A stretch of 64,000 nucleotides of DNA from Cheilinus undulatus (Eukaryota > Chordata > Actinopteri > Labriformes > Labridae), in assembly GCF_018320785.1 (NCBI RefSeq), contig NC_054885.1, forward strand, positions 9,794,421 through 9,858,420. The letters run 5' to 3'. The notes under the pieces are model-generated. The model worked only from the letters and a program-made list of their open reading frames with translations. It had not been told where the DNA came from and did no database searches. Shown one piece after another: positions 6,804 through 59,945 of this stretch. Each line of letters begins with the position of its first letter. Within the stretch, counting starts at the first letter, position 1. The position numbers were made by a program, and so were the translations under genes.

Positions 6804-8029
6804 GAAGAGGTAAGTAATGTTTGCGTTTTATTGAAAGCCGTTGCTCGATATGCTATGTTCCTAGCTAACAACGTAGCATTATATTACAAAATTGACAGTT
6901 GAGCTAGCTGCGTCAAACAAATTTGTCATACTTTACTAGATTTATTCGACAGACAACTGCTTGACAGCTTTAGTTTTCATTTAAAAATTTTGTTCAAGAA
7001 TTACAAATTAATTTAATCCTAAATAAGCCAGCTCAGGATAGAGAAAAAAGAACATAGTGTGCCTTGAATGTGTATCTTTCTTTCTAGAGGTAATACGTCA
7101 AGAAAAAAGGCTAGGTTTACAGTATATTTAGATTTTAGAGAGTGCAGTTATAATGTACTGTTTTAATCGCGTTGTGTCAATCAAATGCAAATGTACACAG
7201 ATGCTGCGATATTAAGGCTTCTTGTATCGTTAAATGTAGCTGAAGGAGACAGAAAGATCCCTCTGAAATACAGTTTACAGTATTATTTTGGCAGCTTTGT
7301 AATATTTAGATTAACGTTATTTAGTTTTAGACATCATTTTAGCCTTTATAAGTTTGGCCCAGTTTTAGGTGAAGTCTCAGTCAATAAAAGTCCTTACATT
7401 TTTGTCTTTGCCTTTAGTCAAGGCATGTTTTTGGTTAGTGTAGTTTGAATGATCAGCCATATGATCAGCCACTTCTACATAGATTTTTAATACACTGATT
7501 TAAAATAGAATAATATATTTTATGTACTGTGGAAAGTATCATGGATTTTTGATAATCAAAGGTCCAGCTCCCACATTTTAGTCTTGTTCAGATCCCCGTG
7601 ATGAAAACTAGACATACTTTTTTAATCATGAAAGATCTATTTTAGTCAATTCTTCCTTGTGTAAAAAAAGTAGTTGACTAAAGTAGCTGACTAACATGCT
7701 CAGTCATAGTTTTAGTTGACAAAATATATGAACAAAAATATGACTGAACAAACAGACTGACAAAATATTTGGAAGGACGTGCATGCAACATATTTTATTC
7801 TGTGTTGCCCTTATAATACTAATTTTAGTTTTTTTAAGGGCCCAAGATTTTAAGACAATATCACAGGAATACAAACTTTTTTGAGAGATTTCCATCCAAG
7901 ATAACAGGGTACCTGAGCCAAGATCTCAAGAAAACTATTAGAATTTACTCTTTGACTTAAAAACAGAGTATAAGAAAATAAATGGATACATGTTTGCCCA
8001 GGACTTCAGTTTATCCTCGATATTTTGTC

Positions 8030-8107
8030 ATGATTTCTGTGAGCAATCCCCTGGAAAAAGCTCTGAGACCCATTTTTGGATCCCAACCCACCAGTCGAGA
8101 ACCACTG
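8030..8107. mobile_element. hAT-type MITE right-end relic
   Basis: ACCAGTCGAGAACCACTG ends at 8107, in the family style of the other hAT ends. The left end is not identifiable. In slc25a39 intron 1. Confidence 0.5.
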
Positions 8108-9633
8108 GTATAGATAGCCCTGTCTCTTTCCTTGTGTTTTGTATTACTCTTTTGTCAATAATCACCTGCAGCACGTTTTATAAAGAAGCTCAAACAACAT
8201 CACATGCCTCTGGAAATGTTTCACTTGATCATCCTTATTATAGCACGTGAGCTGCATTTAAGAAGGCTTACTGCTGATGAGATAGCATCACACAGCAATC
8301 ATCCAAGAGGGCAGGAGAACAGGATATGGGTAGCAAAAAGCTGAAAAAAATGTTTCAACAATGGCATAAAAAGTTGAATTTTTAACGAGACATCACACCT
8401 CAATTGGTGTATCTTTGGTATGGTTGTGCTCGTGGATTTTTCTCTTGCACAAACAGATGGTGACTATGTATAAATTTAGAGAAAGAATGAAAACATGGTC
8501 AGCAAATATACTGGGGTGGCTTTAAATTACCTGAGTGGCCGGTTTCTCTACCACTGCAACAAAATTGAAAGTCCTGCACCCAATATTGGAATATTTCTTG
8601 TTTTAGGGAACAAAATATTGTAGGTGAACTACCACACACAGTCTATAATACAGAAAAACAATGAAAAAGTGTTTTCCTAATGTTTTTATGTAATTTAGAC
8701 TGTGCTTACTTTCTCACATTGGAGCTTTAGGTTAAAATAACTGAAAAATGATGACCTTTTAAGCTTTGTTACCCTTCAGTACTATTTATCATTAAAATGA
8801 CTGCAATGTTTTAAAACATTTGGTCCTGAAAAGCCTTGAACAATCAAAGAAAAGGGAAAAGATGTTTGTGACGTGTTTAATTGGCTAGCCAAAAAGCCTG
8901 ACGCCCAGGTGGCCTCAGATGTAACACTTATGTGTAAATAAATTGAGGAATAGAAATAGCCATAGGAAACATATGTCATCTACACAGTTTGAAAAACAGG
9001 AAAGCTTAAAATGAATGTAGTGACCTTAAACTTCTCCACTCTTGAATCTTCCTGAGATTATCTTTGCTGTCAGTCACAGAGTTGCTCGAATTTTTTGGAA
9101 AACAGTTTGTACTTCTTGGGAGTCGTGACATCTCTGAGGACATTTGTTGGTTTTGTACAAGTTTATCTATCAGCAGTTTGTCACTTTCTCAGTAGGGAGT
9201 GGATGGTCTCTCGGCCTGTTTGGCTCACTGCACATGCACACTATAGATAAGCTATCACACCGTTTCAATGACCCCATTACAAAAAACTCCACCTTGGCTT
9301 TGCTGGGCACATCAAAGAAACTCACTCTTATTTGCTCACACTTCTCATATTGCAGTATTACATTTGCATTAAACTGTTTTGGTGATCTGACTCTGACTAA
9401 GGTTATCTCAGGTGTTACACAAGTGACTCTTTGACATAACAGGACACAAACCAAGCCACAAATAAGGTGTTAGGTTCCAGTACTCCTCCTCGGTTGTTTT
9501 ACATAACAGGGAGACAAAGACATCCGGACACAAAGCTTCTACAGGGTCAGACAACACCTTACAGGAGTTTACTTACAGAACATTATGTCATCTTGGTGTT
9601 AAATGGTGTTTTTTTCACTGACAGGTGCGCAGG

Positions 9634-22875: not shown

Positions 22876-27273
<4,398 letters not shown>

Positions 27274-34150: not shown

Positions 34151-34747
34151 ACTACAACCCAAATTCCAAATAAGTTGGGACGCTGTGTAAAACATAACTA
34201 AAATCAGAATGCAATGATTTGCAAATCTCATAAACCCACATTTTATTCACAAAAGAACATAAACAACACATCAGATGTTAAAATGGAAACATTTTACCAT
34301 TTTATGAAAGAATATTTGCTCATTTGGATATGATGGCAGCAACACATCTCAAAAAAGTAGGTACAGGGCAACAAAAGGCTGGAAAAATACCATTAAAAAC
34401 AGCTAAATGAGCATTTTGCAACTACTTTGGTTAATGGGAAACACGTCAGTCACATAACTGGGTATTAAAGGAGCATTTTAGAGAGGCAGTCTTATGTTGT
34501 AGTACTCGACGGTCTTGGTCTTGAGACCGGTCTCAAGACCACATTTTGAATTTCTTGGTCTTGTCTCGGACTTGAAAGCATTTTTACTCGGTCTCAGACT
34601 GGCTGGACTTGGGATTTTCCATCAAAATCGGCCGAGACCAGCACTGATCTGCTATTCTTCAACTTCATTAATGTGATAGTAATAAGAGGCACTAGCTAAA
34701 AAGACAAATAGCTCGGACATGAGTCCATCTTATTTCTAGTCAGAAAG

Positions 34748-35278
34748 TAACCTTGCAAAGCCGATGGATACGCCAGTTTCCTTATTTTTCACTGGCAAAT
34801 CCATCTTGTTAGGCTTCCATCTGAACCGTTTGGGCCCAGTTAGAAAGTGACAGGACCAGTCAGCGACGAGGGGCAGTACTTTCAGACACAGCAGAGTCGT
34901 GACGTAAACAAGCAGCAATAAGAGCTGGTGTAGTTATGGAGGAAGAGATAAGCATGGATGTTGCTAAAGCACCAGTTTTATCAGAGCTTGACAATATTTC
35001 TTTGTTAAAAGAAGAACAAAGAACAGCCATGAGTTGTTTTCTTTTCAAAAACGACAAGTCGAGTACTTACATATCTATAGTCGCCATGTTTCGCGTTATT
35101 CCTCAGTAGCTGCACACATGCAGCTTGATAGCGGCTATGTCACATGTTTTGTTGCTCTTTTTGGCCCGTAGAGATGTGACAAACAGAACGTTCATCCAAT
35201 CACATTCCGAGTTTTTTCAAAGCCTCTGCCTTTTCTCAAACGTTTCCTATTGAAGCTCTGGCATGGCGTGTCAGGTTA
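34748..35278 (+). mobile_element. TAACCT-family transposon, copy A (531 bp, helicase-like first exon)
   Basis: Begins TAACCTTGCAAAGC and ends GTCAGGTTA; flanked by a perfect 9-bp duplication GTCAGAAAG (34739-34747 and 35279-35287). Just inside the left end is a hairpin (GGATACGCCAGT against ACTGGCAAATCC). Then come CCAAT-like and GC-rich promoter-type sequences and an ORF from ATG 34936 to TAG 35107-35109 (57 aa). It starts MEEEISMDVAKAPVLSELD and continues with LKEEQRTAMSCFLF. The latter resembles the region just before the Walker motif of RecQ-like helicases (KEEQ..A...F), an inference. No transposase is present. The copy is nested in a larger composite insertion within a Tc1-like element. 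Confidence 0.8.
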
Positions 35279-35624
35279 GTCAGAAAGACCTCTGACCTCT
35301 TACTTTAGGCCTCATTCACCTGACAAATCTAGATAAACATCTCATTTTCAGATATTAAAAATAATTCCAGACCTGTCATTGGCTTTTAAATACATACAAG
35401 GATTTATTTTTACAAGAAGTTACTTGAACACATTTTTAAGATTTGAGATTTTTGTGTGATGTGCTTTGAAAGAGTTGCAGACACCTTATTTTCATCTGTC
35501 AAATTTATGAAAAAAAAAAACTAAAATTAAGGAGAGAATGCTTTTTACTGCTCAACCTTGTCATGTTTTTTCAAAATTGATTTGTTTTTTTACTTTTTAT
35601 TTTTCATCTTTTTTCATTTTTACA

Positions 35625-36105
35625 AAAACAGCGGGGGCTATACAGTCATCCCGCCCATTGTTCAAGGTTCTCAGTCTGGCTACAATGGTTCCACCGTTCT
35701 CTTGTATTGAAACCATCTGTCCCAGCGATGGTTGAGGGTTTTTGTTATAAATGTCAGAAGGTGAGTCAGTTTTTCCAGAGAGTATATTTCCTCTAAAATT
35801 GTGAGCCACTGGGCTATTCCTTGGGGGTCACTTTTCAGCCAGCTTCTCACGATGGCCTTTTTGCATGCGAGAATCATTATTTTGAAGAGATACATGTCCT
35901 TTTTAGGGATGTAGTCTCCTGGGGGTAAGCCCAGGTATAGCACCCTGGGTATCCCCATCACAAAAATCTTTTCCAGGATCTGGGTAACTCCTTCCCAAAA
36001 TGTCTGAATTTTCATACATGACCAGAAGATATGAGAACGAGTGGCAAACGTATGACCACATTTCCTCCAGCAATGTTGTTGTATGTCACTGTGTTTAGTC
36101 AAAAT
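35625..36105 (-). mobile_element. L1/Tx1-like LINE ORF2 C-terminal fragment
   Basis: Minus-strand ORF 36102-35680 (140 aa) reads RSHIFWSCMKIQTFWEGV, then LYLGLPPGDYIPKKDMYLFKIMILACKKAI and WLTILEEIYSLEKLT. This is the conserved tail found downstream of the reverse transcriptase in fish L1/Tx1-type elements (CCHC-like HxxxxC region). It is truncated at both ends, so a dead 5'-truncated or recombined copy. Confidence 0.7.
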
Positions 36106-37612
36106 TGATTTTTATGGTCTTGCTCTTGACTCGGTCTCGACCCCCTAAAGTCTTGGTCTTGTCTTGGTCTCGGTGCACTCTGGTCTTGGGCATGGCTTGG
36201 TCTTGAACAGTGTGGTTTTGAGAACAATACTAGCAGAGTCTCTCGGAAGTAAAGATGGGCAGATGTTCACCAATCTGCACAAAGCTGCATCTAAAAATTG
36301 TGGAGCAATTCCAGAAAAAATGCTCCTCAGTGTAACATTGCAAAGATTATGTAAATCCCACCATCTACAGTTCATAATAACATCAAAAGATTCGAAGCAT
36401 CTGAAGAAATTACTGCACAAGGGACAAAACCAAAGGTCAAAATTGGATGCTGGTGACCTTCGGGCCCTCAGGTGGCACTGCATTAAAAACAGACATAATT
36501 CTGTACTGGAAATCACTACATGGTCTCAGGATCACTTCCAGAAACCAATGTCTGACAACCAAGGTTATGACAGGTGTGGATTTTCATTCAGTGTTTAGTG
36601 TTAGTTTCAGAAATTTCATCAAGTTTTTAACTGCTGCTTTGTTAGTTTAGTTTAGTTTTTGCTAAATGGTTTGTTTTAGTGTAGTTTTTTTTTTTGTTTA
36701 AATAAGTTTTAGTGTTAGATTTTGCTTTTTCAGAAATAAAGAGATTCTAGTGAGGGACAAGACCGAAAGGGGTCAGAAAAAGTAAACATATAATTTTCAA
36801 ACTCTTTACTTTTCATTCTTTTTATTTATTCAAATTAAATGCTTGAATACAACTCAAGTACTAATCAGGCAATTTTAAACCCCCTCCATTCCAAAGGCAC
36901 ATTTTTAAGCACAGAATTTATTTTTTGCTAGTTTTAATATTTTTTGTAAAGCTTATTTTTATTTAATTCAGTCAACCAAATCGTAGTTTAACTTATTTAG
37001 TTAGTTCTAGTAAACTTAAATAATCTTGCTGTCAACACAGTTGCCATGCCTTCCACAAATGTAAGTTAAAGCTTAACGTGAAAATAAGACGCTCTATGTG
37101 AACACAATCAGAAATTGTGCTGTCTTCTCTGGGCCGAAGTTCATTTAAAATGCATGGAAAAAAACGTTCTGTGGTCAAATGGGTCAAAATTTTAAATGCA
37201 TCCTGGAAACCACGAACGCTGTTCATATGCTCCCATCCAGGGAAGGCCTTGCATATTTCAGCAAGACAATGCTAAACCACATCCACCACAACAGCATGGC
37301 TTCTTAGTAGGAGATTCAAGGTGCTGAGCTGGCCCTGCCAGCAGTCCAGCCCTCTCACCGATAGGAAACATTTGGTGCATTGTAAAACAAAAAAAAATTG
37401 ACAAAGAAAGCCCAGGACTGTTGAAAAGCAGCTAGAATCCTAAATCAGACAAGAATGGGACAGCATTCCTCTCCTAAAACTCCAGCGACTGGTCCCCTCA
37501 TATCCCAGACTGTTGTTAAAAGAATAGCTACACAATGGTAATCATGGCCTTGCCCACACTTTTTTGAGATGTGCTGCTACTTACCAGTGTTGTTATGCAA
37601 AGATTTGAATAC

Positions 37613-38104
37613 TAACCTTCACACATCCATCTGGAAAACCTCCCATAGACGGTGTTTGGGAAAGGGCAGAGACATTCTGTCTGGCACATCTTTACGGGCC
37701 AATCAGAGCAACAAAACACGTGACGTAGCTGCTACCGAAGTGTGCTGTTACCGACTAAATAAATTCCATAGATAGCTGCATAATGCTAACCGTGGTGACT
37801 GTAGACATGTCAGTGCCGGCCTTTGTCGTTTTTGAAAAGAGAAAAAAAATCACTGCTGTTGTTTGTCCTGATGAAACTGGCACTTTAGCAGCATCCACGC
37901 TAATGTTTTCTGCCATAATTGCACCAGCCTCTTGTCGCTGCTTGCCTACGTCATGAGTCTGCCATACCAAAAAGTACTGCCCCTTGTTGCTGATTGGTCC
38001 TGTTACTTTCTATCCAGGCCCAAACGGTTTAGACGGAAACTTTGCAAGATGGATTCGCCAGTAAGAAACACGGAAACGGCGAATCCTTATGCTTTGCAAA
38101 GTTA
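37613..38104 (-). mobile_element. TAACCT-family transposon, copy B (492 bp)
   Basis: Left end TAACCT at 37613, right end GCAAAGTTA at 38104. Flanks TTTGAATAC (37604-37612) and TAAGAATAC (38105-38113) match at 7 of 9 positions. It is inverted relative to copy A. The ORF on the minus strand (ATG near 37916) starts IMAENISVDAAKVPV, then diverges by indels. It retains CCAAT boxes (CCAATCA near 37691; ATTGG near 38003) and the subterminal hairpin. It lies just beyond the decayed 3' end of a Tc1-like element. Confidence 0.75.
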
Positions 38105-38113
38105 TAAGAATAC

Positions 38114-39582
38114 TAGATATCGCTAGAAAATATGGTGTAATGAAATGCATGGATGCACTGTATGTCTGCTAAGGGCTTGTGTGCAATCTAAAGAGCACCT
38201 AAATCCTTTATTTTTAAGCCCAGGAGCCAGTTCTACCTGTAATTTGTCGTTCATGTACATCATTAACTTAAATCTAAGATATATTAATTTCTGTTTCCTG
38301 AAAAGGTTATTGATGGCGGTAACTACCATGTTGAGCAGAGGGAATGAAAACAAAATGTACCTGAGGATGCTGCAGAGGCGAGGAACTGTTATAATGACTT
38401 TAAATGAAGGATGCACTTTATTGTTTGTGTTGGATGGATCCCCAACAAGACCATTAAAAAACACTAAATTTTCATTCCAGAGACAACAGAGATCTTGCTG
38501 CAAACCATGATGTAAACAGGTGGAAATCACTTTTTTTGTCTTCCTGCCATGCAGCAGTGTGTTTTTTGTCTTTTTTTAAATGCCGTGATTCCCCATCCTC
38601 TCTCTCTGATTAAAGCCATAATTTATCACGGACAAAGCCGGAGTCCTCTTTGTTCTGTGCAAAGGACAGTGAGACTGAGGGCCTGCCAGACTGCAGCTCC
38701 TGCACCCCTGCACTGTGGCATCAGTATTCAGGGCCCGTTCACGGACACGGCGTTCTCTGAGCTGACGGTGGCTTCCCTGCGCTCCATCCCCCCGTCACAC
38801 CACCAGAGGGCAGAGCACGGCGCTGCATTTCTGCATCATGCATCCTGGAGCACTCTGTGCATGTAGCCTACTTTGGTTCTTCCTCTTTATCTGTGTCTTT
38901 TTCTTTTTAAGCGGCCCTCCATTCAGAGGCGGATTTAAGAGCTTCACTTGTGTATAAAGCAGCAGTGACATCTCAGACTCCTCGGAGTTTTTTATCCAGG
39001 AAATGTTGAAGCTTCATTGTGCTGTTATCAGCAGTGGGGGTGATGTGAATGTGTCATTTCAGACTATGTTTGCTCCAATGATTTTTTTTTCTTTTTCACT
39101 TGGTTGACCGTGCTTATAGCTCTGTGATGCCACTCAACTCTGCATGACCCAAAAATAACCCGGGGTGAGCGCAGTCAGCAACTGTTCTCTGGTCAGCACA
39201 AACAACAGGCCTCATCCCTCTCTCTCAGCCTTCCTCTCTCTCTCTATCACAGGAATGCACATGCAGATATAATGTTTGCACGCACAGGAGTAAAGATAAA
39301 CATTCCTCAGCACACATATTTCAGGTTGCATTATATTTTCAGGGCATTAATTCACAAAGAGTAAGCGTATACTGCTGCAGCCTCCGTCTCAGCCACTTAA
39401 AGTTGGAGGTATCAGTGGTGGAGGCTTCAGGTGACGCTCCCACACTGCTCCCATGGGTGCTTTCTTCTTCTCTGTCCCAGAACGTCGTCCAGTAAAGTCA
39501 GAGAAAGGTCATTAGTCGGTTTGATGTGAGGTTATGTAACATCGCAGCCCGGGAAGAGACACAAAGCCAGGGCAGGGTGAGG

Positions 39583-39613
<31 letters not shown>

Positions 39614-39950
39614 TGTTTGCTCTTAATATTCTCGGCCAGGAGGAGTCTTATCTCCTCACCTGGCCATCAACCCTCCTTCAATACCTCCATCCCCAGTGAC
39701 CCCACCCCAGCACTGCAGAGAGACTTTGATCACCACAACTGAACAAATAAAAAGAGAAAGGAAGGAAGAGAAGGAGTGGGACAAAAAGGTAAGAATAAGG
39801 GGGTCAAATGATGATTAGCATATGTGCACTCTTGAAGATTTCTAGACACCAAAGTAGCAGAAAAACAACAGAAACCAACAGGATGATGAGAATTATTTTT
39901 ACATCACAAGATAAAGGAATCCAGTCCTGACATTTTCAGCAGCTGTACAC
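38114..39950. other. Low-repeat intergenic block
   Basis: Apart from the (GA)n run at 39584-39613, no repeats are seen. The part 38580-39480 is compositionally balanced with TGATTAAAGCC and GGCATTAATTCAC-like AT cores. It may hold conserved regulatory sequence; no gene is visible. Confidence 0.35.
39584..39613. repeat. (GA)n microsatellite
   Basis: About 14 uninterrupted AG dinucleotides. Confidence 0.85.
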
Positions 39951-39954
39951 CTGG

Positions 39955-40315
39955 AAAGGCCGTGTCAGGTATGGGAGCATATGCCGGTTCGGCACTTTGC
40001 CGTGTCGACCTTGGTCCTGTACTGCCCTGGCATTCTGATAGTCATCGTCCCATGCCCCCATCTCTTTAGATATCCTCCCAGCTGTCCCCTCCATGACATG
40101 TGCACCTGGACAGACCATCGGGTCCAAGGCACCCAGAATGCAATGAGCTGGATCAGGCCTGGGAGGCAGCTGACCCTTCCCATCCTTGCTGTCCTGAGCA
40201 CATCAGCATTAGACACACGGTCTTGCCAACGATACCCAAAGAAAAGTCGTCACAAAGGTGTCCAGTCGGCACCTCTGGCTGTCAGTCAGCAACCATCGTT
40301 TCTCTTATAAGATAT
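39955..40315 (-). mobile_element. 3' fragment of the same non-LTR element
   Basis: Parallel to 43846-44190: both have GTGTCGACC(C/T)TGGTCCTGTACT, a clustered CCTCCC(A/T)GCTG region and CGATACCCAAAGA in the same order and orientation. No reverse transcriptase core. 5'-truncated copy. Confidence 0.65.
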
Positions 40316-40789
40316 TCAATGCTAATAATATAAGTGTTAGCTCTGGAGCTTTGTCCACCTCCGTTACCATGCCAAGACATAAAAAATGAAAAGATTTGAC
40401 TCTTTGAGGGCATGTCTGGCTTCCTCCTCTTCCTCTCCCTCCGTGATGAGCCAAAGGGAGAAGAAGAGGAGGAGGAGGTGAGGGGGGAGGATATGTTGCT
40501 TCATCAAACACCTGCACAGTGAATCACGCTGTCAGGAGCTAAAACATAACAGTATCATGTCAGTAGCTAGTCAGTAGATTTTAAGATTTATTTGTGTTTT
40601 CAATTTTATTTAAAGGTTTTTAGTCAAAATCAGCTGTGATTTTGTCCATGTGTGTTTTTCAACTATTTTTTTGTATAATTTACGGGGCAAAATTTGTCTT
40701 TCTTCTCAGCTAAAATGTTTTATTGGCTTCAACTGGGCGAATGGTGTCAATAGCATTGGTCCACCACGGGTTAAATGTGGACTATGTGG

Positions 40790-42210
40790 ACATAGGCTTG
40801 AACCGGGAAAATGGTGTGGGCCCCATATGATTTCAGTAACATAGGCCCTAAATGGGTTCATATTGGGCATGATGAGCATGGGCTTGATCTCGGGAAATGG
40901 TTTTGCCTCATATGGTTCGAGTAACATGGGTTCCCACATAGGTTAAACCTGGGCAAAATGGGCATGAGCTAACCTGACGGAAAAGTTTGGGAAAGGGCAG
41001 AGGCTTTGAGAAAACTTAAAAGGGTGATTGGATGAACGTTCTGTCTGTCACATCTTTATAGGCCAATCAGAGCAACAAAACATGAGGTAGCTGCTACCGA
41101 GATGCAACTCTATAGAGAACTGCATATCGCAAACCTGTAGACATTTTAGCACCACACTTTTGTCATTTTTGAAAACAACTCAACGCTGCTCTGTGTACTT
41201 CTTTTAATGAAGAAATATCATCCAGTTCTGATAAAATTGGCGCTTTTGCAGCATCCATGCTAATGTCTTCCACCATATCTGCACCAGCCTCTTCTCGCTG
41301 CTTGCATATGTCATGACTCTTGCGCTTGAAAGCACTGCCCCTCGTCGCTGATTGGTCCTGTCACTTTCTAACTGTGCCCAAACAGTTCAGACGGGAGCTT
41401 TTCAAGATGGATTCGCCAGTGAAAAATAAGGAAACTGGCGTATCCATCTGCTTTGCAAGGTTAGGTATGGGCTTGACCTGGCCAAATGCTGTGGGGCTCA
41501 TTTGATTTAGTAACATAGGTCCCACACGGGTCAAATTTAAGCAAAATGGGCATGGGCCTGATCTCGGGAAAGTGGTGTGTGCCACATACAGGCTCAGTAA
41601 TCTAGTTTCCACAAGGGTTAAATTCCGGCTAAATGGGCATAGACATATTTTGGGAAAATGGTATGGGCCCCTAATGATTTTAGTAACATAAGAACCAAAA
41701 AGAGTTCATCTTGGGCAAAATTGGCATGATATGGGCTTGATCTCAGGAAAGCGGTGTGAGCCCCATTTGGTTTAGTAACACTGATCCCACATAGGTTGAA
41801 ATTGGGCAACGTGGGCAAAGGGTGTGGGCCCCATATAGTTTAGTAACATAGGTCCCATATGGGTTAAATTTTTTTGCTTTATCTCAGGAAATGGTTTGGG
41901 CCCATTATTGTTAATGACACATAGGTTCCACATGGGTAAAGTTTGGCCGGGGAAGTGGTGTGGGCCGAGTATGGGTTCAGCAACCTAGGTTCCACATTTG
42001 GGCTGTATGGGCATGGGCTTAAATTGGGCAAATGGTGGCCCCTTATGGTTTCAGTAACATAGGCCCAAAAAGGCTACTTGGGCAATATGGGCATGGGCTT
42101 GATTGGGAGTGGTGTGGGCCCCATTTGGTTTAGTAACATAGGCCCTACATGGGTTAAATTTGGGGTATGTGGGCATGAGCTTGAACTCCATAAATTGTGT
42201 GGGCCTCATA
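40790..42210. repeat. 84-bp minisatellite (about 11 units)
   Basis: Each unit has GTAACATAGG, then CCCACATGGGTTAAATT, GGGCATGGGCTTGA and GTGTGGGCCCCATATG. Spacings between successive GTAACATAGG-type marks range from about 60 to 93, most near 84. The array is interrupted by transposon copy C (40970-41463). Reading frames here are by-products of the repeat. Confidence 0.8.
40970..41463 (-). mobile_element. TAACCT-family transposon, copy C (494 bp) inside a minisatellite
   Basis: Ends TAACCT (40970) and GCAAGGTTA (41463). The flanking 9-mers GGCATGAGC (40961-40969) and GGTATGGGC (41464-41472) match at 7 of 9 positions. The element interrupts the 84-bp minisatellite, whose units resume on both sides, so it inserted after the array formed. 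Its reading frame carries several stops and indels. The subterminal hairpin is well preserved next to the right end. Confidence 0.78.
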
Positions 42211-42214
42211 TTTC

Positions 42215-43840
42215 TTGTCATTATTCCATTATTTTTTTTGGCTCAAAGTCCTACCTTCGAAACTTGAAGCTGCTTATCTCTGAACGTATAGCAGTGTTAA
42301 ACAGTGAATTTCACAAAACAAAGACTTTGACTCTGACTTCTACCTTTGAGTCATGGTTTCAGACCACAATGGTGTAGCAGTGCACTCATTTATGTACTAA
42401 TTATTTTGATTACAATCTGATACAGTTCAGAGAGATTATCATTACACAGTCTTTGGCTTGAGAGAATCTATCTGTATCATTACACAGTCTATAATGTCAT
42501 CTGTTACTATTTACTTGTATTTTGCAGACATTACCTGCTGTCAAACAGGACAGAGCCATTTCAAAGACAAAGATATATCTACAAAGGGAGCCAAGGAGAG
42601 AAAATTAGACTTTTTCAATCCTAAAACACATTAAAATTTGAAACAAAAGCCCCTCGCTGCTTCATAAGAAGGTCAGTATTGCTAAGCTTCCGCCCCAAGA
42701 CACACATTTTCTCTTGAATGTAATCCGGGCTGTAAAATGACTTCTGCATATGAATTCTAAATAAAGATGGCTATACATAAAAAGCCCTATTCATTTAAAC
42801 TGCTATGTTGACATATTTTTCCCATCAAATTTATGGAGAGCGGCTTGTGTCAGTGAGCTCGGATAACAGCAAATCAGGATCTCAGCACTTTTTCTAAGAA
42901 AACTTATTTCCTCCCATCCCTTATTTGATGATTATGCTGGCCTCTTAACTTCTCCGGAGGACTTAGTGTACATACTATCAAACAGAACTCCATTTACACT
43001 GTGTGTGGATCTCATTTTATTTATTTAGCCTTTTTCCTTGAAGGATCTCCCTTTCTGTACTCTGCTCTCCCTCGATCTCGCATTCATGACTTACAAGAAT
43101 GGAGAATGAGCCACTTTTGTCTCACAAATACGATTGCTTTGTACCTGCCTTGACAGCATACATACGCACTAAAAGAAGCACGTTTGGCCCTGAAAAAGAA
43201 GTTTTTAGGTTGTTCTCTTTGCAGTAGACTAAACCTGATGGTGTGATTGCAAACCTGTGTTTGCCTCTCATGAATGTCTTAGAGATGCTAAGATTGTCTG
43301 TGTCTTACATGCTGTCTTGTCTAAAGCTTTTTACCTCAAAGAGAGAGGAAAAATATGCCCAGTGGAGTTTAGAAAAAGCTTTTTCTAAGCGGTAGGAGTC
43401 AAAACAAGCACAGATTTCTTTTGAGGAAATAAAGCATTTGCAAATTGTCAGATTAAGACACTAATGAGGATATAGAAATGCATCTTATAAAGGCATAATT
43501 GGCACGGCGTTTGAGTGAAGTTAACAGAATGTGTCCACCTTTGTTAACTTTGTGGACCGTCTGGTATGAGACGGCTAAGTTGTATATTTGGATTGCTTCT
43601 CCCAGTGGGCGCTTATATTTCAACAACAGCAGAGCACAGACAGTTTCATGTTTAACAACTCAGCTATTATTTTTTTTATTGCTTCATAAAGGCTGGTGCC
43701 AACATTTTGTATCAATTTTCATGTGTCTGAAAACTGGCAATTTTCAAGTCTGAGACAGTTTATAAAGATGTGCCTTTATTCCCTATGTCATCTATATTTG
43801 TTTTCAAATAAAGCCCTGAACTTAAAGAACTCTTTAAAGG
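42215..43840. other. Low-repeat intergenic block
   Basis: The longest stretch without a recognisable repeat between rpl3 and cacng2. No coding exon. Balanced single-copy composition with AT-rich cores; a candidate conserved non-coding region. Confidence 0.35.
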
Positions 43841-43845
43841 ATGTT

Positions 43846-44990
43846 GGTCAGGTCAGGTCAGATATGGGTGCATATGTCGGTTTGACACTTCACTGTGTCG
43901 ACCCTGGTCCTGTACTGCTCTGGCCATCCTTCAGGCTTGCACCAGGCCCATACCCCATCTCTTCAGGCATCCTCCCTGCTGCCCCATCCACAACGCGTGC
44001 AGTCACCCTCAGCATCTGGACCGGTCCACCAGGTCCTGGGCACCCAGTATGCAGTGAGCTGCATCATGCAGGGGAAAGCATGCCAGATGACCATAAAAGC
44101 ACAGCTGACGGTTCCCATTGCCATCGATACCCAAAGATATACCAAAGACAAGTTATCATGAGGAGTCCAGTCAGTGTCTCTAGCCATCAGTCGACATCCA
44201 GGTCTTACAAGATTATAGTAAGACCGGAAGGACCAAGGATCCAAAGACTGTGGCTTTCATCCACATGCTCAGATACCAGGTACGCCACATTGTCTTGCTC
44301 AGCAAACCCATTGCCAAAAGAGCATGTTCAGGTCTGCAGTTGATCTCAGCCTTGCAGTTAGCTGATCGATGGATTACACCACCAAGGTAGGTGAACTGCT
44401 CTACAACTTCAGTGTCCTCACCATTCACTGACAAAGATTCAATGTCAGGACCCAATGCATACCCAAATGTCTGGATCTTGGTTTTGGCCCAGTAGACGTG
44501 CATTTACAGTGCTTTAGCCTCCTCACTCAGCAAGTTAAGAGCCCCAACAAGGACATCTACAGTCTCCACAAGGATCACAACATCATCAGCAAAGTCCAGA
44601 TCAGTGATCTGGACCTTGCCAAATGACACTCCACAGTTCACTGCCCTTGTTACTTGCCTGATTGTCCAGTCCGTACAGGTACTGAAGAGTGTAAGTGCTA
44701 AAATACACCACTGCCTCACCCCAGAATCAACTAGGAAAAAGTCAGAGGTGGAGCCGCCACACTTCACAGCACTCTCTGGACCAGAATACAGGGCAGATAT
44801 CAGGTGGATGAGCAAATATAGGATCTTGTGGTGCTGGAGAATCCTCCACCAAGTCGAATGCCTTCCGGAAGTCAACATAGGCTGCAAGCTACCTTCTATT
44901 AAATTCCTAAAAATGAACAGTGAGGACCCAAAGAGCCAGGACGGCATCTACCACTGACCTCTTAGGTGTAAAGTCGACTGTTGAGGTGTT
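43846..44990 (-). mobile_element. Degenerate non-LTR reverse transcriptase (with 3' domain)
   Basis: Minus strand: VRQWCILALTLFST (usually VRQGC.LAP.LF) near 44720, then the catalytic box ITDLDFADDVVILVETVDVL near 44600. Next come KTKIQTFG, EVVEQFTYLGGVIH at about 44390, and a C-terminal region reaching 43846. Several frames are joined by shifts. The clade is uncertain. Confidence 0.7.
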
Positions 44991-45137
44991 GGTGGTGACT
45001 CAACAATACACATTTTGAAAAAAACTATTGCAAAAAAATGTCAGCACTTGACCTTTTATTCTGCAGCACAGACTAGAATCGTATTAAACGTTCATGGTGC
45101 TGACCAGAAATTTGTTTGATTTTATCAGCCTGTCTTA

Positions 45138-46263
45138 GGCCTTGTCCACACAGAGACGAAAACGATATATTTCCATTTTGTTTCGAAAAAGTTTTCCATA
45201 AATACAGAATCATTTCAGGAAATGTCCCTGTAAACACTAACCTGGCATTAAAACCTTACATAGATGGCATTGGGAAAAGGCAGAGCCTTCAAAAAAAAAA
45301 ACAACTTGGAGGGTGATTGGATGAACATTCTGTCGGTCACATCTCTACGAACCAATCAAAGCAACAAAATGTGTGACGTAGTTGCTACCGAGGCTCGCCA
45401 CTATGGAGGAAATTAATCTCCATAGATAGCTCCATTGATAGCGAACCATGGCCACTGTAGACATGTCAGTACACAAATTTCGTTGTTTTGGAAAAGAAAA
45501 CAACTCAATGCTTTTCTTTGTTCTTCTTTTAACGAAAAAATGTTGTCAAGTTCTGATAAAATGTACACTTTAGCAGCATCCATGCTAATGTCTTCTGCCA
45601 TAATTGCACCGGCCTCTTCTCGCTGCTTGCTTATGTCATGAGTCTGCCGCACCTGAAAGTACTGCCCCTCGACGCTGATTGGTCCTGTCACTTTCTATCT
45701 GGGCCAAAACGGTTCAGATGAGAGCTTTGCAAAGTTATGTAAACACGAAACCACTAAAAACGACTGAAAACACTGTAGTATGTATGCCAAGCCTGTAAGT
45801 GGTGCTGTAATGCTGCCAATGAAGTGCGCTAAAAGAGAAAAGATTACCTGCCCCACACTTTCTCCTAGTTGCCCTTCTGGTTGTTCTCCACGGTGGATTT
45901 AAGAACATATGGTGTCTGCTGTTCTCGGTGGTGGTAAGATTTTGCTGTGAAAGCCATAATAAGCTCAGTAGCTTCTGTAGCACAAACACTCTCCTGTAAT
46001 CCACTATTGTTGTTTTGGGTGGACCCGAGCACATAGCTTAAGTGGGCTACACTATTTACGATGTAATCGTTTCCAGAAAGATGCGGTTGGCTTTTCCACA
46101 TGAAGACGAAATGGTAAGTGTTTACAGATTTCTTCACTCTGGGACCTGGTTTCAAAAAGTAGCGTTTACTGCCTCCCAAAATGCTGTTTCCCTGTGGATG
46201 AAATGCCGATACAGCAAAAAACTTTGCTTATACTCCTAAATTTGTTTCTGTGTGGACGGGACC
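45138..46263. mobile_element. PIF/Harbinger-like MITE hosting copy D
   Basis: Terminal inverted repeats GGCCTTGTCCACACAGAGAC (from 45138) and, inverted, GGTCCCGTCCACACAGAAAC (ending 46263). TTA lies on both sides (45135-45137 and 46264-46266), the 3-bp duplication typical of PIF/Harbinger. Without the 500-bp insert and its 9-bp duplication it is about 617 bp. No transposase is seen; short ORFs inside are not recognisable. Confidence 0.7.
45238..45737 (-). mobile_element. TAACCT-family transposon, copy D (500 bp) inside a Harbinger-like MITE
   Basis: Ends TAACCTGGC (45238) and GCAAAGTTA (45737), with a perfect 9-bp target duplication TGTAAACAC (45229-45237 and 45738-45746). The minus-strand ORF is the best preserved of the inverted copies: from ATG 45601-45599, MAEDISMDAAKVYILSELDN, then LKEEQRKALSCFLF. 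A longer in-frame extension reaches upstream to 45691. CCAAT boxes are at about 45351 (plus strand) and 45678-45682 (as ATTGG). The subterminal hairpin present in A, B and C is missing here. Confidence 0.85.
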
Positions 46264-48285: not shown

Positions 48286-54600
<6,315 letters not shown>

Positions 54601-57854: not shown

Positions 57855-58600
57855 ATTTCAACCGTTGACTCTGGGAAGTCTGCTGTTTTATTGCTTTTAG
57901 ACTTATCAGCAGCCTTTGACACTGTGGATCCTTTTATCCACCTGGAAACACACGTGGGCATTAAGGGGACAGCACTTAGTTGGTTTCGTTCCTACCTGTC
58001 AAAGTTTTTCTGTTAATTTAGGACAGTACTCCTCTGTGTCTCCCTTAAACTATGGTGTGCCCCAGGGTTCCACATTAGCGCTGGCCCTTTTCACCCTGCA
58101 TATGCTTCCCCTGGGTGCTATTTTTAAAAAACACAATGTGTTGCTCCATTGTTTTGCAGATGACATTCAAATACATCTGCCTGTGACTGTGAATGACAGC
58201 CAGACCACAATCAAAACTCTGCAAGAGTTTCTCAGTGACGTACAGTCCTGGATGAATACCAACTTCCTGAACTTAAACAAAAACAAGACAGAGATAGTGG
58301 TTTTTGGCCAAACTAACCCACTGATTGGACAGGACAGTGTGATTGGTTCTCTGTCTTCCTACTGTCGCTCTTCAGTGAGGAATCTTGGGGTGATTGTGGA
58401 CTCCATGTTCAAACTTGACAAGCATATCAGCGCTGTCATAAAGTCCAGCTTTTTTTCAGTTGAGACTGCTAGCAAAAATTAAACCATATCTCCCTCCGGC
58501 TGATTTTGAACGAGCAATTCATGCCTTTGTAACATGGCGTCTTGATTATTGTAATTTCTTGTATGTAGGGTTGGACCAGGGCTTGGTGAGAAATAATAAG
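57855..58600 (+). mobile_element. L2-type LINE reverse transcriptase fragment
   Basis: Plus strand: LLLDLSAAFDTVD at about 57890, a frameshift near 58005, then NLGQYSSVSPLNYGVPQGST, the catalytic box HCFADDIQIHLPV at about 58151, and LNKNKTEIVVFG, NLGVIVDSMFKLDKHIS. This order is typical of L2/CR1-like reverse transcriptases of fish. Truncated at both ends and frameshifted; dead. In cacng2 intron 2. Confidence 0.8.
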
Positions 58601-59029: not shown

Positions 59030-59945
59030 CATCGAAGTGTTTTGTTGGGCATGAATGGCTGATTTGAGTCTGGATGTTTGACTTGGCTGCTCCAAAATCT
59101 TCATTTTGATTTTTTTAGCCATTCAGAAGTGGACTTCTGGCATGTTTTGGATCATTGTCCTGCTGTATAACCCAAGTGTTTTTGAGTATGAGGTCAGGAA
59201 CTGATGGCCAGACATTCGCCTTCAGGATTTTCTGATAGAGAGCAGAATTCATGGTTCCATCAGTTACAGCAAGTGGTCCAGGTCCTGAAGCAGCAAAGCA
59301 GCCCACTACCAGCACCATGCTTAACTGTTGGTTTGATGTTCTTTTAAAGAAATGCTGTGTTAGTTGCACATTAGATGTAAAGGACGTGCACCTTCCAAAA
59401 AGTTCAACTTTTGTCTCGTCAGTCCACCGACTGTTTTGCTTTTGGCCTTGGAACTCTTCCATGGATGCCATCTTTGCCCATTCTCTTTCTTATTGCTGAA
59501 TCATGAACACTGACCATAGCTGAGCCAAGAGAGGACTGCAAGTCTTCAGATGTCATTCTGGGTTGTTTTGGGACCTCCTGGATCACTCTTCAATGCACTC
59601 TTGGAGTCATTTTGGTAGGCTGGCAACTTCTCGGATGGTTCAAGACTAGTCAAAGTTTTTTTCCATTTGTGGGTAATGGCTCTCCCTATGGTTTGCTGTT
59701 GTCACAAAGCTTTGGAAATGACTTTGTAGCTGTTTCCAGACTAGATGCCAATGACTTTGTTCCTCATCTGTTCATGAATTTCTTTAGATGGCAACATGAT
59801 GTGTTGCTTTTTGAGATCTTTTAGCCTACTTCACTTTGTCAGTAGGTAATTCAGTTACTTTTTCCCGTAGGGCCAGGTAAGTTTGGATGACTAAATACAT
59901 GATATCACCATTTTAAACTGCATAAGTATTTGCTCACCTATTTTA
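59030..59945 (-). mobile_element. Tc1-like transposon family III in cacng2 intron 2
   Basis: Minus-strand frame at 59471-59115 reads WTDETKVELFGRC, then CFAASGPGPLAVTDGTMNSA and WVIQQDNDPKH. These are the catalytic DDE-region blocks of a Tc1-like transposase, including the second acidic block. The flank GGGCCAGGTAAGTTTGGA (about 59869) matches the same position in the 48952-50246 copy. Frameshifts elsewhere. Confidence 0.78.

Follow-up and report, generated by a model that had tools for sequence, protein, structure and literature searches.

Four copies of a short transposon in the window

We analysed a stretch of 64,000 nucleotides from the genome of Cheilinus undulatus (C21:9794421-9858420, hereafter the window; the host genome comprises 1.17 Gb in 46 contigs). 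The window carries four copies, A to D, of a short DNA transposon, which we describe here as a family of miniature inverted-repeat transposable elements (MITEs) together with a long, helicase-bearing relative on contig C14, hereafter the parent. The copies, their target duplications and the gene remnants recognised in copy A are located as follows:

34748..35278, helicase orientation +: MITE copy A; 531 bp, 7.0% from the 559-bp consensus
34739..34747 (left) and 35279-35287 (right): target duplication of A; GTCAGAAAG and its right copy, 9/9
34936..35043, +: remnant of the first helicase coding segment in A; 36 codons can be aligned with the parent on C14
35070..35087, -: remnant of the opposite-strand gene start in A; MATIDM, where the parent has MATVDK...
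37613..38104, -: MITE copy B; 492 bp, 16.6% from the consensus; helicase start codon 37916-37914 (-)
37604..37612 (left) and 38105-38113 (right): target duplication of B; TTTGAATAC and TAAGAATAC, 7/9
40970..41463, -: MITE copy C; 494 bp, 15.0% from the consensus; helicase start codon 41276-41274 (-)
40961..40969 (left) and 41464-41472 (right): target duplication of C; GGCATGAGC and GGTATGGGC, 7/9
45238..45737, -: MITE copy D; 500 bp, 19.8% from the consensus; helicase start codon 45601-45599 (-)
45229..45237 (left) and 45738-45746 (right): target duplication of D; TGTAAACAC and its right copy, 9/9

Pairwise, the four copies are 70.5-79.6% alike, and A lies in the orientation opposite to that of B, C and D. 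No fifth copy emerged when the four were used to scan the window (E up to 1e-3). The original prediction had described four copies with TAACCT...GTTA ends and flanking 9-mers, and this was borne out, the 9-mers being identical around A and D and agreeing at seven positions around B and C. It had also described every copy as having CCAAT boxes on either side, which holds for B, C, D and the consensus, but not for A, where a single CCAAT is present at 35196. Copy C is inserted within a degenerate repeat (40720-42220) with units of about 80-100 bp as judged by eye; Tandem Repeats Finder reports only 41998-42145 there, with a period of 80.

A numerous family with 9-bp target duplications

Searching the host genome with copy A gave at least 40 strong matches. 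From this match list, 24 further loci were viewed by eye, and the 21 that had both ends were used to build the 559-bp consensus; their divergence from it is 3.8-6.4%. Since these 21 loci were chosen as the nearest to A, they describe the group of A and not the whole family. A seems closest to this young group and the other copies look older, because A diverges from the consensus by 7.0%, compared with 15.0, 16.6 and 19.8% for C, B and D, respectively.

At the 24 loci, the common sequence ends at the TAACCT/GTTA termini and the flanks differ, with the exception of L019, L023, L026 and L027: the left end is altered in L019 and L023, and the right end is absent in L023, L026 and L027. The predicted boundaries at TAACCT hold, with no shared sequence past the ends at the loci viewed. 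The terminal inverted repeats are short, with TAACCT at both ends followed by a GATGGAT/ATCCATC inverted pair near each end. The right end further contains a palindrome (consensus 517-547; CCAGATGGATGTGT, a 3-base loop and ACACATCCATCTGG, with 14-bp arms), which is shortened or absent in several copies, A among them.

A 9-bp duplication matching at 8/9 or better was observed at 16 of the 21 consensus loci. In addition, 20 loci from a protein search were examined, of which 10 were complete and 7 new, the latter with 9-bp duplication scores of 9, 8, 9, 8, 9, 7 and 2 of 9. Beyond the window, the duplication is therefore present at this level in 21/28 complete copies, as anticipated for copies genome-wide. 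Among 22 duplicated 9-mers that were tabulated, no fixed sequence was found; an adenine occupies position 7 in 13 of them. Two long-frame matches to the exon (L034 and L041) resemble MITE variants when inspected by eye.

The left end occurs 15,838 times in the host genome (27-base pattern, up to 3 mismatches) and the right end 10,646 times (25-base pattern); the reversed end patterns occurred 0 times in the same 1.17 Gb. If each left end represented about 0.53 kb, the family would make up some 0.7% of the genome, although not every end is a full copy. The elements have the properties of MITEs: they are short, are present in very many copies, lack a complete transposase gene and have ends in common with a longer coding element.

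A helicase-bearing parent on C14

The parent was found by a search with the RecQ profile TIGR00614. Of the 28 matches, three fall on C14, around 1.086-1.088 Mb. These three (2.5e-11, 5.0e-7 with two stops inside, and 1.2e-4) are each alone under the 219.8-bit family cut-off, and the second begins within the exon shared with the MITE. Joining two contiguous stretches revealed the right end of the unit, which measures 8,995 bp (C14:1079324-1088318, - strand), has the same ends as the MITE and is flanked by the 9-mers AAAACCAGC/AAAACCAGA (8/9). MITE positions 1-295 align with the left end of the parent (84%), and positions 290-356 (84%) and 392-559 (94%) align with its right end. The MITE is thus derived from such an element by internal deletion: its two arms match the left and right ends of the parent, and the middle is missing.

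From the left 295 bp of the parent, the frame is open beyond the MITE exon and leads into RecQ-like helicase motifs. Helicase_C is found on this strand with 1.2e-12, above cut-off. The left arm contains CCAAT and TGACGTA, followed by the helicase ATG. The original prediction had interpreted the open reading frame as the N-terminus of a RecQ-like helicase and the unit as 'once part of a helicase-bearing element', and both interpretations are supported by the parent. A long copy with matching ends was thus found, which combines the helicase with a DUF6589 domain and has an 8/9 duplication. The exon-1 peptide alone gave 0 matches to solved structures at E up to 10.

Each of the parent's 64 open-frame pieces of at least 50 amino acids was scanned with Pfam, with an E-value limit of 1 for 20 of them and of 0.1 for the other 44. 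XPG, Mutator, Merlin and hAT domains were found in none of the 64 pieces, though decay of this broken copy could hide one. Other Pfam matches were few, weak and below cut-off. Two unrelated repeats are nested in the parent, one at positions 7672-8136 with at least 38 relatives at 80-85%, and one at about 1130-1400 with many short inverted pieces.

It could be argued that the helicase and DUF6589 sequences on C14 are host genes or other repeats hit by MITEs, and that the 9-kb unit is not one element at all; its broken state and the two nested repeats would fit this. We consider this very unlikely. The ends of the unit are complementary MITE parts and not two full MITEs, one 8/9 duplication surrounds the whole, exon 1 is in frame with the helicase, and the sole DUF6589 match in 1.17 Gb is located there.

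A second gene on the opposite strand

DUF6589 was detected in the parent with 8.5e-15, on the strand opposite to the helicase; a second piece (0.01) is weak and under cut-off. At E <= 0.01, this domain has a single match in the genome, which is the one in the parent. Read on the other strand, the right arm of the MITE contains CCAAT blocks, CACGTGACGTA and MATIDM, and then a stop. At the place of MATIDM the parent reads MATVDKSVHDFCRFCKEN, and its ATG lies 251 bp from the right end. Motif, strand and position lead us to infer that the ATG of the right arm is the start of the DUF6589 gene, with no unbroken frame joining the two. The CCAAT blocks on the two sides would then be the promoters of two convergent genes, and their presence on both sides would be explained because each would serve one of these genes.

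The same data bear on the idea that a MITE of Mutator or Merlin type acquired a promoter and a helicase first exon from the host. The 4-10 bp duplications given for MuDR in passages of PMC10045372 include 9 bp and would allow for this. However, in a longer element that shares its ends with the MITE, this exon leads uninterrupted into helicase motifs. The far arm of the MITE corresponds to where the second frame of the parent begins, and the Mutator and Merlin domains are absent from 64/64 pieces. We therefore give such a capture hardly any weight. The proposal that promoter and exon were taken from elsewhere was not supported either, as each of the two CCAAT blocks lies where a gene of the parent itself appears to begin, the two genes being convergent.

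Pfam labels DUF6589 a family of unknown function, and no mention of its name was found in the literature searched. Fungi and cnidarians commonly carry this domain. Relatives in viral and genome contig collections were sought with one 103-residue piece as query, and none was confirmed. The DUF6589 protein is probably the transposase. A more specific proposal, on which we are evenly divided, is that DUF6589 catalyses transposition in a group of transposons assisted by a helicase, either AcademH or a new sister group, with convergent transcription of the helicase and transposase genes. The double promoter of the MITE would be a remnant of this arrangement, and about sixteen thousand elements having these ends would scatter inward-firing CCAAT promoters across the genome of a fish.

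Origin and fate of the MITE family

With the ends, the duplications, the end counts, the deletion structure and the presence of helicase motifs and DUF6589 in one unit all observed directly, the four copies very probably belong to a MITE family that arose by internal deletion of a helicase-bearing DNA transposon of about 9 kb, most likely of the AcademH lineage. In such a parent, two genes would have converged, with their starts 0.19-0.25 kb from the respective end and a CCAAT-containing block ahead of each. One strand would have carried the gene of a RecQ-like SF2 helicase, and the other the DUF6589 gene, the probable transposase. The MITE would have retained both ends, the CCAAT blocks and the start codons (about 295 bp on the left and 270 bp on the right) without the intervening 8.4 kb. 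Proteins of the parent would have mobilised it in trans, cutting at TAACCT/AGGTTA and inserting it with a 9-bp stagger. The helicase was presumably required for this movement, which has probably stopped.

Several observations speak against this interpretation. Of the 28 complete copies, 7 fall short of 8/9 for a 9-bp duplication: 8 bp is the better fit in L004 and L012, L046 scores 7/9 and L028 6/9, and L017, L019 and L048 show no duplication. Except for 8 bp in L004 and L012, lengths other than 9 bp perform no better. MITE positions 357-391 have no counterpart in the alignment to the parent. The left arm of the parent resembles the MITE at only 84%, which makes the C14 unit a relative of the direct source and not necessarily the source itself. 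Moreover, this copy is broken by stops, frame breaks and the two nested repeats, which makes its gene structure approximate. DEAD, on the helicase strand, is below the curated cut-off (7.8e-5; 22.9 vs 26 bits). In the DUF6589 gene, no catalytic residues were identified.

Searches for further relics of the parent score the best candidates only and could overlook parents that have diverged. With the 271-residue helicase tail as query, 6 matches were obtained in the genome: C14 itself, a broken helicase fragment on C9 (54%), another on C12 (37%, in two overlapping rows), and weak matches at C9:29790237 and C24:5148629 that were taken for host helicases. The C9 and C12 fragments were also recovered with parent DNA. 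A C9 match to parent positions 7672-8136 was rejected as a sign of kinship, this stretch being the unrelated nested repeat. On C7, a fragment of the opposite-strand gene is 79-81% identical to parent DNA. Its open 251-codon frame showed a nonsynonymous to synonymous rate ratio (dN/dS) of 0.81 against C14, no lower than the 0.76 and 0.68 of two wrong frames, and hence gave no sign of a maintained gene on C7. In total, the searches returned one full-length parent and three partial relics, suggesting that the source is nearly gone.

Coding constraint in the MITE exon

Between the MITE consensus and C14, dN/dS of exon 1 is 0.48, based on 36 codons with 13 changes, which are too few to weigh. Constraint was further assessed in the 21 MITE copies, which had been chosen by DNA similarity, using comparison windows that overlap. 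The ratio of amino-acid to silent changes in these copies is 0.51 (lowest 1.1% of windows), or 0.54 when each change is counted once (0.7%). For changes found in one copy, which mostly postdate insertion, it is 0.67 (23%). After dropping CpG sites, the corresponding values are 0.56 (6.7%), 0.55 (1.1%) and 0.70 (27%). When CG, TG and CA sites are left out, 9 silent and 22 amino-acid changes remain, compared to 8.0 and 33.8 expected. A set of 28 copies gave 0.43, but 7/28 of these were picked by protein similarity. Within consensus positions 189-296 there is thus a deficit of amino-acid changes among shared variants and a lesser one among single-copy variants, which is unexplained if the MITE never codes. 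The simplest reading is a weak inherited signal or chance, with no evidence of a peptide working today. The predicted open reading frame leads into the helicase in the parent, but the constraint on it within MITE copies is weak and ambiguous.

Other features of the window

48289-48903, -: claudin-family exon (Pfam PMP22_Claudin, 1.6e-13)
25711-26088, +: match to ribosomal protein L3 in an open frame (Pfam, 3.2e-38); exon or retrocopy
44507-44947, -: reverse-transcriptase fragment (RVT_1, 3.9e-5, below cut-off)
57901-58479, +: reverse-transcriptase fragment (RVT_1, 1.1e-13)
59118-59489, -, and 36149-36595, +: Tc1-like transposase remnants, recognised by eye

Judged by eye, the claudin-family exon is presumably the terminal exon of a TARP resembling stargazin, with the TTPV motif at its end; the four MITE copies would then be located 3' of it. 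The frame at 59118-59489 (-) gave no Pfam match at 0.001.

Comparison with known transposons

The paper on the AcademH lineage is reportedly that of Kojima from 2020, whose title names 'animals and fungi', and the nuclease of AcademX is XPG. We assess the MITE family as new and unusually numerous, and its source as dead. An abundant anonymous repeat is now tied to a helicase-carrying transposon, and a role in transposition is suggested for DUF6589. The MITE has outlived its source, with 15,838 left ends against the one parent and three relics found. With two promoter-like blocks per MITE, effects on nearby genes are testable. A survey of four teleosts lists 987, 791 and 334 Academ copies, and none in tetraodon (PMC4746887, Table 2); its comparison with the left ends counted here is a loose one, as the repeat library of that survey predates AcademH.

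Three other groups share features with the element. AcademX, with a nuclease and duplications of 3 or 4 bp according to passages in PMC10045372, would belong to the same superfamily if AcademH applies; it was rejected, as no XPG was found in 64/64 parent pieces and duplications are mostly 9 bp. KolobokH has RecQ as an accessory gene, and so does Kolobok-1_CCri, where it lies on the complementary strand, as described in part of PMC9587614. Kolobok duplicates TTAA (same source), in contrast to the 9-bp duplications of varied sequence in the present family, and KolobokH was rejected. Passages in PMC10045372 give duplications of 4-10 bp for MuDR, a range that includes 9, and of 8 bp for Merlin. 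Mutator/MULE was rejected, no MULE transposase domain being present in 64/64 pieces, though decay could hide one. Merlin was rejected with 9 bp in 21/28 copies, 8 bp in 2/28 and no IS1016-like domain in 64/64 pieces. The original prediction was thus right about DNA transposons with 9-bp duplications, but not about their affiliation with Mutator or Merlin.

The same internal deletion could have occurred in a parent outside AcademH, from a separate superfamily with a DUF6589 transposase and a RecQ-like helicase on the opposite strand. This we regard as improbable, though well ahead of the other alternatives. The Pfam status of DUF6589, the absence of its name from the literature searched and the opposite strands of the two genes would fit it, and helicases have been gained more than once, as the RecQ genes of KolobokH and Kolobok-1_CCri indicate (in part of PMC9587614). 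On the other hand, a 9-bp duplication combined with a helicase is what is reported for AcademH, which encodes a helicase and makes duplications of 9 or 10 bp (passages in PMC10045372). Differences from AcademH lie in the second gene, which here carries DUF6589 on the strand opposite to the helicase, its identity as an Academ-type transposase being only putative. The C14 unit, at 8,995 bp with nested repeats, is also longer than the curated bivalve Academ elements, which average 5,565 bp in the part of PMC10294476 that covers them. Since it combines a helicase inside the element with 9-bp duplications (21/28 in the family, 8/9 around the parent, and in the window 2/4 at 9/9 and 2/4 at 7/9), AcademH, and not Mutator or Merlin, appears to be its best placement.

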